Source: Isosphaeraceae bacterium (GTDB lineage: Bacteria; Planctomycetota; Planctomycetia; Isosphaerales; Isosphaeraceae). Taken from it: DNA of 64,000 nucleotides. Each line of letters opens with the position of its first letter. Positions within the stretch are counted from its first letter, which is position 1. Below are positions 56,901-61,184 of this stretch, piece after piece. The stretch lies in assembly GCA_025356475.1 (NCBI GenBank), contig JANXSX010000039.1:1-64000 (forward strand), in the 5' to 3' direction. The notes under the pieces were generated by a model. That model did no database searches. It was not told where the DNA came from and saw nothing but the letters and a program-made list of their open reading frames with translations. Both the position numbers and the translations under genes were made by a program.

Positions 56901-58460
56901 ATGCCGTTGACCCCGACGCCTCGCGGCCCGGGGCGGCTTCCTCGTCGGCCCTGGCGGCCGATCTGTGAGTCGCTGGAAGGCCGCGCCTTGATGGCTGATT
57001 TTACCCTCTATGGCACTAAGTGGGCCGACCCCTCTCGCATCACTTACAGTATTGCCTCTGATGGCGCATCTTGGGTTGGAACACCTAACGTCATTTCCAG
57101 CTTCCTGAACGGAGTGACCAACACCAGCATCTGGCAACGTGACCTGGCTCGAGCCCTCCAAACCTGGGCGTCCATTTCCAATATCAACGTCGTCCGGGTG
57201 GGTGATGGCCTCTATACCGAGGATACCGGCGGCTACGCTCAAGGTGATTCTCGGTTTGGTGATATCCGATTCGGAGCGATCAACCTCCTGACCTCAACGA
57301 CGTTGGCGCAGACCTACTTTCCGCCTCCGAATGGTGTCACTGCCGCTGGCGACGTGACCATCAACACCGAGATGCACTGGTCGATCGGCGACGTCCCCGG
57401 CAAGTACGACCTCTACAGCGTGGTTCTGCATGAGACGGGTCACTCATTAGGTCTGGACCACTCCCACAATCCCGGCCCAGTGATGTATGCCGACTATGGT
57501 GGCTATCGCTTGGGGCTCACCGCCGATGACATCGCTGGCATCCAAACTCTCTATGGAGCAAGGACTCCCGACGCCTACCACGCGATCGGCCAGGGTTCGA
57601 ACTTCGGAAGTTCGATCGACCTGACGGGCGGGCTCGACGCATCAAGCTCAGGCACTCTGCGTGGGTTGAGCCTCTCGACCATCGGCGACACGGAGTATTT
57701 CACGGTCGTCGCCCCTGCGAACGCCGATGGAGCCTCGATTCAGGTCCAAGCCGTGGCCTCGGGCGTGAGTTCGCTCAGCCCGAAGATCACGCTCTACGAC
57801 CCTCAGGGGAACGAACTGAGCAGCAACGCGAACCCCAACGACTGGGGCGACACGGTCACTGCCCAAGCCTCCGGGGTTACTGCGGGTAAGCGGTACTTGG
57901 TCGCTGTCACGGGCGCGACGAGCGACGTTTTTGCAGTCGGCGGCTACTCGCTCAAGTTCAGTTTCCCTGGGTCGACTCCCCCTCCGCAGCTTCCTCCCAC
58001 TCAACCACCTCCCCAAGAAACCCCTCCGGCGGTCCCTCACGTTGGCAACAACTCGTTTGCCAACGCGACCAACCTCGGCACGACCTCTACGAAGGTGACC
58101 GTCGGCCCGCTGAGTTTACCTTACGGAACAGACGTGGCGTTTTTCGCGGTGACGACCGGCAAGGCGGGGACTTACCAGGCGACGGCTTATGGGCTGGCAG
58201 TCCAGATTTTTGACAGCCAAGGGCGTCTCGTGACTCAAGGTCGAAATGGTGCTGCGGTCAAGGTGAGTCGCGCCGGCGTGAGGCTTTATGTGGCTGTTGA
58301 CTCCATGAACGGAGCTCCCGTCACGAACTACACCCTGAACATCACGACGCAAACTCAGACCAAACTGAGCAGGTCCGTGACACCCAAGAAGGCGAGACAG
58401 CTCGCAAATCCGGAGAACCACTGGTCGAGGACTGCGTTGAAACGAGCAGGACACAAATAG
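56901..58460 (+). CDS. Matrixin-type zinc metalloprotease with two PPC-like domains
   Basis: A 519-residue protein. Residues 20-32 carry the motif SLEGRALMA. The protease domain (about 32-225) has the metzincin zinc site HETGHSLGLDH at 177-187 and the Met-turn VMYADYGG; GLTADDIAGIQTLYG closes the matrixin fold. Two domains of bacterial pre-peptidase C-terminal type (PPC) follow at about 240-350 and 385-485, with a proline-rich linker between. The basic tail may hold a sorting signal. It is likely a secreted protease. It has no pro-peptide of the usual cysteine-switch type. Confidence 0.92.
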   Translation: MPLTPTPRGPGRLPRRPWRPICESLEGRALMADFTLYGTKWADPSRITYSIASDGASWVGTPNVISSFLNGVTNTSIWQRDLARALQTWASISNINVVRVGDGLYTEDTGGYAQGDSRFGDIRFGAINLLTSTTLAQTYFPPPNGVTAAGDVTINTEMHWSIGDVPGKYDLYSVVLHETGHSLGLDHSHNPGPVMYADYGGYRLGLTADDIAGIQTLYGARTPDAYHAIGQGSNFGSSIDLTGGLDASSSGTLRGLSLSTIGDTEYFTVVAPANADGASIQVQAVASGVSSLSPKITLYDPQGNELSSNANPNDWGDTVTAQASGVTAGKRYLVAVTGATSDVFAVGGYSLKFSFPGSTPPPQLPPTQPPPQETPPAVPHVGNNSFANATNLGTTSTKVTVGPLSLPYGTDVAFFAVTTGKAGTYQATAYGLAVQIFDSQGRLVTQGRNGAAVKVSRAGVRLYVAVDSMNGAPVTNYTLNITTQTQTKLSRSVTPKKARQLANPENHWSRTALKRAGHK

Positions 58461-58598: not shown

Positions 58599-58787
58599 CT
58601 ACGACCGAGAAAACAACGGATCGAGATCTCAAGGAAAGGTTTGAACCTCTGTATGCTCTTGTGGTAGCTTACTCAATCGGTGACACCGAGGGTTTGGCTT
58701 CGTAATTGCTGCATTTCTCGGTGGTTGAACGATACGAGTCCTGGCAACTTCGCACAGACTCTCCCAAGTTCGCAGGAGCAACGTCCC

Positions 58788-59405
58788 GTGGCCGATTACA
58801 CCTTGCCTCCCCTGCCGTACGACTTCGCCGCCTTGGAACCGACCATCGACGCCAAAACGATGGAAATCCATCACGACAAGCATCACCAAGCGTACATCAC
58901 GAACTTGAACAACGCCCTGAAAGATCACCCTGACCAGCAGGGTAAGACGATCGAAGCCTTGATCTCCAACCTTGATGCTGTCCCCGAGGCCATTCGCACC
59001 GCAGTGCGCAACAATGGGGGTGGGCACGCAAATCATAGTCTGTTCTGGCAGGTCATTGCCCCCAAGGCCGGTGGCGAACCGACCGGTAAGGTCGGCGCGG
59101 CGATCACTGCCGAACTCGGTGGCTTCGCCCCTTTCAAGGAAGCGTTCGGCAAGGCGGCAACCACCCGGTTCGGGTCAGGTTGGGCCTGGCTCGTCGTCGG
59201 CAAGGATGGCAAACTTGCCGTCACCTCGACCCCCAATCAGGACAGCCCGATCATGGAGGGAACCACCCCCATCCTCGGTCTTGATGTCTGGGAGCATGCC
59301 TACTACCTCCACTACCAGAATCGCCGACCGGACTACATCGCCGCATTCTGGAACATCGTGAATTGGCCCGAAGTCGAGCGCCGGTACTGCCAGGCCAAGG
59401 GTTGA
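58788..59405 (+). CDS. sodA: Superoxide dismutase, Mn/Fe family
   Basis: A 205-residue enzyme that converts superoxide to peroxide and oxygen. Metal ligands are H28, H83, D166 and H170 (DVWEHAYY). Y36 in HHQAYITNL is also conserved. The pattern [11 protein letters not shown] and Q151 in NQDSP are typical of the manganese type. The start is a GTG at 58788 with AGGAG nine bases upstream; the open frame before it has no family features. The cytosolic dismutase complements the secreted peroxidase at 51562 in oxygen defence. Confidence 0.95.
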
Positions 59406-59633: not shown

Positions 59634-61184
59634 ATGCGTGAGAGTTACACCGCAGGCGCGTCGCGGGCGATCCAACGAGCCGAGGTTCGAGCCCGGCGGC
59701 GTGGTGCCACTGTTGTCGAGCCTGTAGACCTGCTTGCTGCGCTCGCGGATGAGCCCGAAAGCCGCGCCTCAACCTGGCTCACCGAGTTCGGACTGGATCC
59801 CGATTCCTTGCTCGATTCGCTGGGATTCGAGGTCATCGACCCGGAAGAAATCGAAGCGGAACCGGATGAGATTGGCCTCCCTTCGTCGGAAGAAACCCGC
59901 GCCGTGTTCGCAGAGGCGACCCTCCAGGCCAAGGCCTTTGATCGCGGTCAGGAGGTCGGTACGGAGCACCTGCTCGCGGGACTCGCGACCAGAGGCGGCG
60001 AGACTGTGATGGAGTTGCTCTCCAACGCGGGGATCGATCCCGACATCTTGGCCGAAAAGCTTGGCAATGCTCCCTCATCGGAGCACTCGCCGATCCCACT
60101 CGCGAGCGACTTTACCCCCCTGGATCTGAGCGAACCAGGACAAGGGGCCGACCTCGGTCGGATCATGGACGCCTCGGCCAATCGTGCTCGCGAGGGCCTC
60201 CGGGTCGTTGAAGATTACGTTCGGTTTGCCCTAAACGATCCGGGTCTGACCCGACGGCTTAAGCTGGTTCGCCACCGATTGGCCGATGCTCTCGCCGGGC
60301 TCGACCCGGCATTCTTGATCGCTGCACGAGACACGACCGGAGATGTCGGCACCCATATCATGACCGCCAATGAACAGGCACGTGAGAACCCCCGAGCGGT
60401 CGTCACCGCCAACTTCAAACGAACTGCCGAAGCGCTCCGTTCGCTTGAAGAGTACGGAAAGCTCATCAATGTCTGGCTCTCCGGTCGATTCGAAGTCTTG
60501 CGTTATGATGTCTACACACTTGAAAAACTTGTGTTAACCGCCATCGCTTCCAACCGGCTTCTCGGCGACGCGAGATTGATGGTACTGGTCGGAGGCTTGG
60601 CGACCTTGGGAGACCTGACCTGGGTCGTTGGAGAAGCCCTCCAAGGGGGTGCGCAGGTGATCCAACTTCGCGAGAAGAACATTGACGATCGAGAATGGCT
60701 CCGGCGTGCGCGCGAGGTCCGGATCCTCACTGCCCAGGCGAAAGCCAAATTCATCGTCAATGATCGCGTGGATATGGCCCTTCTCTCCCGCGCTGATGGT
60801 GTCCACCTCGGCCAGGACGATATCTCGGTGCGAGATGCCCGACGAATCGTGGGGCCATCGGTGTTGGTCGGCGTTTCCACCCATAACCGAGCACAGATCG
60901 AACGCGCGGTCCTTGATGGAGCGAGCTACCTCGGGGTGGGACCCGTCTTCCCCAGCACCACCAAGAGCTTCGACGATTTCGCCGGCCTCCAACTCGTCAG
61001 CGAAGCGTCCGAACTGACCAATATTCCCTGGTTCGCAATCGGTGGAATCAACACAAGTACCGTTGATGAAGTGATCGCTTCCGGAGCAACTCGCGTCGCC
61101 GTCAGCGCAGGAGTCGTCCAGGCGGAGTTCCCCCGTCGTGCCGCTCGGGCGATTCGTGATCAGCTTGAGGCTATTGAGATTTGA
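59634..61184 (+). CDS. thiE: Clp_N-ThiD2-ThiE fusion (thiamine phosphate synthase)
   Basis: A 516-residue fusion. Residues about 1-145 look like a double Clp N-terminal repeat: SRAIQRAEVRARRRGATVVEP...LLAAL and, later, ATLQAKAFDRGQEVGTEHLLAGL. Residues about 172-300 match ThiD2, an HMP-phosphate kinase domain often fused to ThiE (IMDASANRAREGLRVVEDYVRF). Residues about 315-510 are ThiE, with QLREK (344-348), ND (376-377), HLGQDD (391-396), GVGPVFPSTTKS and IGGI. ThiE couples the pyrimidine and thiazole units into thiamine phosphate. The ATG at 59634 has GGAG eight bases before it. The Clp_N part is unusual here. The 3' end overlaps the convergent gene by 25 bp. Confidence 0.9.
   Translation: MRESYTAGASRAIQRAEVRARRRGATVVEPVDLLAALADEPESRASTWLTEFGLDPDSLLDSLGFEVIDPEEIEAEPDEIGLPSSEETRAVFAEATLQAKAFDRGQEVGTEHLLAGLATRGGETVMELLSNAGIDPDILAEKLGNAPSSEHSPIPLASDFTPLDLSEPGQGADLGRIMDASANRAREGLRVVEDYVRFALNDPGLTRRLKLVRHRLADALAGLDPAFLIAARDTTGDVGTHIMTANEQARENPRAVVTANFKRTAEALRSLEEYGKLINVWLSGRFEVLRYDVYTLEKLVLTAIASNRLLGDARLMVLVGGLATLGDLTWVVGEALQGGAQVIQLREKNIDDREWLRRAREVRILTAQAKAKFIVNDRVDMALLSRADGVHLGQDDISVRDARRIVGPSVLVGVSTHNRAQIERAVLDGASYLGVGPVFPSTTKSFDDFAGLQLVSEASELTNIPWFAIGGINTSTVDEVIASGATRVAVSAGVVQAEFPRRAARAIRDQLEAIEI

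Follow-up and report, generated by a model that had tools for sequence, protein, structure and literature searches.

A three-domain thiamine enzyme

The window, the whole 64,000-nucleotide stretch of Isosphaeraceae DNA that we analysed, carries on its forward strand a single uninterrupted frame of 516 residues, from an ATG at 59634 to a stop at 61184 (Table 1). A preliminary description had read two Clp N-type repeats, a ThiD2 domain and a complete ThiE in this frame, and Pfam confirmed the names and coordinates, with every domain above its cut-off: Clp_N at 52.4 bits in two stretches (E = 6e-14, cut-off 20.7), significant within residues 1–145; ThiD2 at residues 176–298 (141.8 bits, E = 1.9e-41, cut-off 23.5); and TMP-TENI (PF02581) at residues 326–493 (196 bits, E = 4.6e-58, cut-off 27). 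The protein also passed the NCBIfam models PRK02615 (369 bits, cut-off 335) and TIGR00693 for thiE (188.3 bits, cut-off 145.1). Pfam showed only these three domains in the protein and no AAA+ ATPase domain after the N-domain, so we rejected its assignment as a Clp ATPase (ClpA, ClpB or ClpC).

Table 1. Features of the fusion gene in the window
Feature	Position	Strand	Basis and remarks
Whole ORF, Clp_N-ThiD2-ThiE	59634..61184	+	516 aa, stop included in range; Pfam and NCBIfam; relatives share the full-length architecture
Clp_N repeat 1, residues 7-63, four helices	59652..59822	+	Pfam stretch 59679-59819; AF2 helices H7-22, H30-39, H44-51, H56-63
Clp_N repeat 2, residues 86-150, four helices, GTEHLL motif (E111 = ClpC E106)	59889..60083	+	Pfam stretch 59949-60062; AF2 helices H86-102, H110-120, H122-131, H136-150
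Clp_N/ThiD2 tether, residues 151-169, low confidence, presumed flexible	60084..60140	+	AF2 pLDDT about 50, blocks 151-170
ThiD2 domain (HMP-P kinase), residues 176-298	60159..60527	+	Pfam
ThiE domain (thiamine phosphate synthase), residues 315-512	60576..61169	+	Pfam 326-493, NCBIfam, fold match to solved ThiE structures

A frame error or a separate start near residue 172 had been named as evidence that would refute this reading, and we found neither. The only other early start is a GTG in frame, 9 nt before the ATG; relatives line up with the ATG, which rules out an alternative start or a frame error. The identical continuous frame recurs in dozens of independent assemblies, isolates included, and the Clp_N part had dN/dS values below 1 in 14 of 14 pairs, leaving a frame error, a chimeric contig or a misplaced start a practically negligible explanation. 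We conclude that the fusion is real and old. Two fusion genes (L153 and G414:C126) have a frame broken between Clp_N or ThiD2 and the remainder, which could be an assembly error or genuine decay.

The ThiE barrel motifs QxRxK, ND, STH, GPVF..TK and GG, which we take to be the catalytic ones, are all present in the fusion, and residues R346, K348, N376, D377, S415, T416, G434–P437, T443, K444, G470 and G471 were invariant across 48 sequences. The host genome encodes ThiC, holds a single ThiD2 and gave no PF08543 match to canonical ThiD above the cut-off, so the ThiD2 domain is probably the sole HMP-P kinase. On these gene contents, the fusion protein probably supplies both ThiD2 and ThiE activities in its host. 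ThiD coexists with ThiD2 in three other genomes (G410, G428 and G167). In a further genome, G429, the gene encodes Clp_N-ThiE without ThiD2 (L093, G429:C155:39236-40489), adjoins a divergent clpC and is accompanied by a canonical ThiD scoring 277.8 bits. As read from its genes, G429 represents a domain swap at the HMP-P kinase step, in which ThiD2 was lost and Clp_N was kept on ThiE.

Upstream of the fusion in the window lie genes for a matrixin-type metallopeptidase and an Fe/Mn superoxide dismutase (at 56901-58460 and 58680-59405), and no thiamine or Clp genes flank it. No TPP riboswitch or other regulatory RNA exceeded the threshold at the window gene; the same was true of 17 related loci, which gave two tRNAs only.

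Spread and origin of the fused Clp N-domain

In a comparison with 59 related genomes, the fusion protein aligned over its full length in nearly all members of the window's family. Within the window's family, the Isosphaeraceae (f1; named relatives Singulisphaera, Tautonia, Aquisphaera and Paludisphaera), the fused Clp_N was present in 36 of 37 sampled genomes from more than 20 genera. Three of these 36 genes are truncated at a contig end or have a split frame (G394, G414 and G422), and no ThiD2-ThiE was recovered from G400, an 81%-complete genome of the family. Outside the family, the tree sample contained the fused domain in 38 of 48 genomes of the class. A Clp_N profile built from families f1 and f2 found the domain ahead of the enzyme also in f4 (one of two), f5, f101, f102 and f103, none of which was in the building set. 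Pfam Clp_N reached an E value of 0.01 in 40 of 48 relatives, the rest being detected with the family profile only. Clp_N was missing, with the enzyme kept, from all eight f3 genomes, from G357 (f4) and from G361 (f2). None of 31 loci examined outside the class carried Clp_N on ThiD2-ThiE, many of them with frames open long enough to hold it. Across the phylum, 205 of 392 genomes contained ThiD2. When 84,980 species were scanned, the best 80 matches were all titled planctomycetes or unnamed bacteria; they include titles of Candidatus Kuenenia metagenome-assembled genomes, which we suspect are mislabelled.

In a tree of N-domains, the fused Clp_N domains grouped in a single clade (support 98/99) that excluded ClpC and ClpB from their own hosts, a pattern that speaks for a single origin. 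Mapped onto the ThiD2-ThiE tree, the presence of Clp_N needs five changes; deep branches of this tree are weak and the outgroup does not fall on one side of a branch. The simplest reading of the tree would be a single early gain followed by losses, and the Clp domain joined once, probably in an ancestor of the class Planctomycetia. As to the donor, which may have been ClpC or ClpB, a PDB profile search favoured ClpC; planctomycete ClpB and ClpC scored alike. An AU test did not reject a clade of the fused domains with ClpC (p = 0.17), in a tree with long branches. The N-domain tree gives no support to a recent duplication of the neighbouring clpC as the source, since the fused clade falls outside planctomycete ClpC.

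Sequence change in the fused domain is several times as fast as in ThiD2 and ThiE. Over 14 close pairs, dN/dS was 0.10–0.66 for Clp_N (mostly 0.1–0.5) compared with 0.006–0.074 for ThiD2, so that selection on the fused domain is purifying but relaxed. ClpC's own N-domain, in contrast, is nearly invariant.

Fold, residues and genomic neighbourhood

AF2 modelled the full protein as two four-helix repeats at high confidence, a helical ThiD2 and a ThiE barrel; the overall pTM of 0.65 leaves domain placement open, with pLDDT near 50 in the tether. Predicted in isolation, Clp_N reached a pLDDT of 91 and a pTM of 0.88. Its best fold matches were the ClpC1 and ClpC N-domains (TM about 0.75, about 20% identity), with mycobacterial ClpC2 and plant ClpT1/ClpT2 ranking lower. 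The models predict a ClpC-type N-domain on a flexible tether.

We surveyed 121 fused domains at the positions of known ClpC residues, with repeat 1 numbering shifted by one relative to Bacillus subtilis ClpC. R9 and E32 are important for phosphoarginine site 1 of ClpC, and K85 anchors its resting state (PMC12583610). In the fused domains, R9 is replaced by G in 83 of 118 and E32 is variable; T7 is T or S in all 117, E106 of site 2 is retained in 106 of 119, and the K85 position holds R or K in 63 of 119. Most ClpC N-domain surface residues are not retained. R11 (115/118) and E42 (114/121) are nearly fixed, and the S43 (86/121) and R44 (89/121) that follow E42 are typical of the fusion only.

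The preliminary description had stated that no ClpC or ClpP gene is nearby. This is correct for the genes adjoining the window ORF, and clpC is not adjacent to the fusion in the window's own family; in many relatives, however, clpC is its divergent neighbour. It lies head-to-head upstream of thiD2-thiE in families f2, f3, f4, f5 and f103, with or without the fused domain, and the spacing can be as short as about 220 bp (L174 and L184). Across all loci we counted 42 divergent cases, 36 of them with a fused Clp_N, and no same-strand case; this tally is not a rate, since overlapping loci double-count some genes and some loci are too short to include clpC. The N-domain of the neighbouring clpC is mostly 93–99% identical to a planctomycete reference. 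The simplest reading, not a firm one because the tree needs 11 changes for adjacency, would be that the pair is ancestral and that thiD2-thiE moved off in Isosphaeraceae.

Immediately upstream of clpC, several planctomycete families have a conserved small gene with a hydrophobic N-terminus and a TPR match (L130 6322-6972, L017 2194-2856, L134 7058-7744). In f3 and f5 this small TPR-match gene stands between the pair, in the direction of clpC, and a homologue with 30.8% identity precedes clpC in the window's genome (L001). We had considered whether in f3 Clp_N had moved into an independent gene next to thiD2E; what lies between clpC and thiD2E there is the TPR protein, not Clp_N. ClpC, ClpB, ClpS and the arginine kinase McsB are all encoded in the window's genome; the McsB-like gene (L137, G000:C81; PF00217, 242 bits) is not beside clpC. 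Elsewhere, L266 (G410:C1:408400-410200) and L267 (G333:C9:514200-516000) encode standalone double Clp_N proteins of about 155 residues without an ATPase, closer to ClpC than to the fused domain in the N-domain tree. L268 (G399:C4:253200-255400) encodes a protein of about 395 residues in which Clp_N is followed by apparent hydrophobic membrane segments; Pfam recognises only the Clp_N.

Possible roles of the Clp N-domain

We tentatively favour a role for the fused Clp_N as a protein-docking module, with its likeliest partner in the Clp network. The enzyme itself we read as bifunctional: ThiD2 would convert HMP-P to HMP-PP and ThiE would join HMP-PP and thiazole phosphate into thiamine phosphate, as the presence of ThiC and the absence of a canonical ThiD also support. 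The pseudo-duplicated, presumably non-catalytic Clp domain would, on its flexible tether, be held near ThiE and, presumably not being a working copy of ClpC's phosphoarginine reader, would most likely bind ClpC itself, ClpS or another ClpC adaptor; binding may then tune how stable or soluble the enzyme is, or where it is located. Support for docking comes from the retention of Clp_N in 36/37 family genomes and 38/48 others of the class, from purifying selection (dN/dS 0.10–0.66), from the single clade with its confident Clp N-domain fold and from the persistence of Clp_N on ThiE in G429 after the loss of ThiD2. The divergent clpC beside the gene in f2–f5 and f103, never on the same strand, the fusion-specific S43-R44 after the conserved E42, and the presence of ClpC, ClpS and McsB in the same genome point the same way. 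The role is weakened by the faster evolution of Clp_N relative to ThiD2 and ThiE together with the disappearance of most ClpC surface residues, by the losses of Clp_N in f3, G357 and G361 without loss of the enzyme, and by the non-adjacent clpC in the window's family; adjacency is in any case no proof of contact.

The same rapid evolution, the loss of most functional residues of ClpC and the several clean losses would suit a tolerated relic, an inherited appendage with little present function whose fold is kept by selection because misfolding would harm an essential enzyme. We consider this possible but somewhat unlikely, as Clp_N has been kept over more than 20 genera of the window's family and in f101–f103, f4 and f5, has R11 and E42 nearly fixed with a fusion-specific S43-R44, and outlasted ThiD2 in G429. 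That Clp_N stays with ThiE even without ThiD2, on a flexible tether, would also fit an assembly role unrelated to proteolysis, in which the domain would determine how the protein oligomerises or bring in a second enzyme of thiamine synthesis, for instance so that HMP-PP or thiazole phosphate can be passed on. However, the model does not predict that Clp_N packs against the enzyme, given the low-confidence tether and the pTM of 0.65, and the other thiamine genes are not neighbours of the fusion in the window, which makes this alternative improbable.

A more specific possibility is that Clp_N reads McsB marks as ClpC does, sending marked proteins or the enzyme itself to ClpCP. McsB and ClpC are encoded in the genome, and T7 and E106 are kept; but E106 belongs to a motif that Clp_N domains commonly share, and its presence therefore has no diagnostic value, and R9 and E32, both of which matter for site 1, are lost. 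As a ClpC-type reader (T7, R9, E32, E106) the domain was therefore rejected, and with the ClpC phosphoarginine residues largely lost, a phosphoarginine-reading degradation handle is very unlikely.

The earlier suggestion that Clp_N links thiamine synthesis to a Clp protease gains circumstantial support from the divergent clpC in five related families and from the ClpC, ClpS and McsB genes. In its strongest form, Clp_N would anchor thiamine phosphate synthase to ClpC or one of its adaptors, coupling vitamin B1 synthesis to ClpCP proteolysis in Planctomycetia, with the head-to-head pair of clpC and thiD2-thiE as its genomic trace; we regard this proposal as doubtful. Regulated turnover of the enzyme is possible as only one of several roles, given the loss of R9 and E32, the fast evolution and the losses in several lineages.

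ThiD2-ThiE fusions and Clp N-domains are each already known, the latter chiefly as parts of Clp ATPases or as small proteins on their own. The window protein resembles the known ThiD2-ThiE fusion (PF17792 plus PF02581; PRK02615) in both enzyme domains, their order and their family scores, and differs in about 170 additional N-terminal residues, which form the Clp N-domain and its tether. It shares with the N-terminal domain of ClpC and ClpB (PF02861) the fold, the two repeats, the length and the position at the protein start, whereas the fused domain lacks an AAA+ module, forms its own clade, has most phosphoarginine-site residues changed and is about 20% identical to solved ClpC N-domains. 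Mycobacterial ClpC2 (PMC10030653) and plant ClpT1/ClpT2, among the sequence and fold matches, are likewise Clp N-domains without an ATPase, but none of them is joined to a metabolic enzyme as in the window protein. For the fusion we imply no role like that of ClpC2, which binds cyclomarin A and acts as a repressor of its own gene (PMC10030653). Our search, which covered the open-access literature, found no published description of Clp_N-ThiD2-ThiE; sequence databases may already display the triple architecture.

In the fusion, a Clp N-domain has become a fixed part of a metabolic enzyme in much of a bacterial class, and clpC is often its neighbour. Should the domain dock on the Clp system, cofactor synthesis would be hard-wired to protein quality control; if it does not, it would represent long-lived reuse of a well-studied binding domain.
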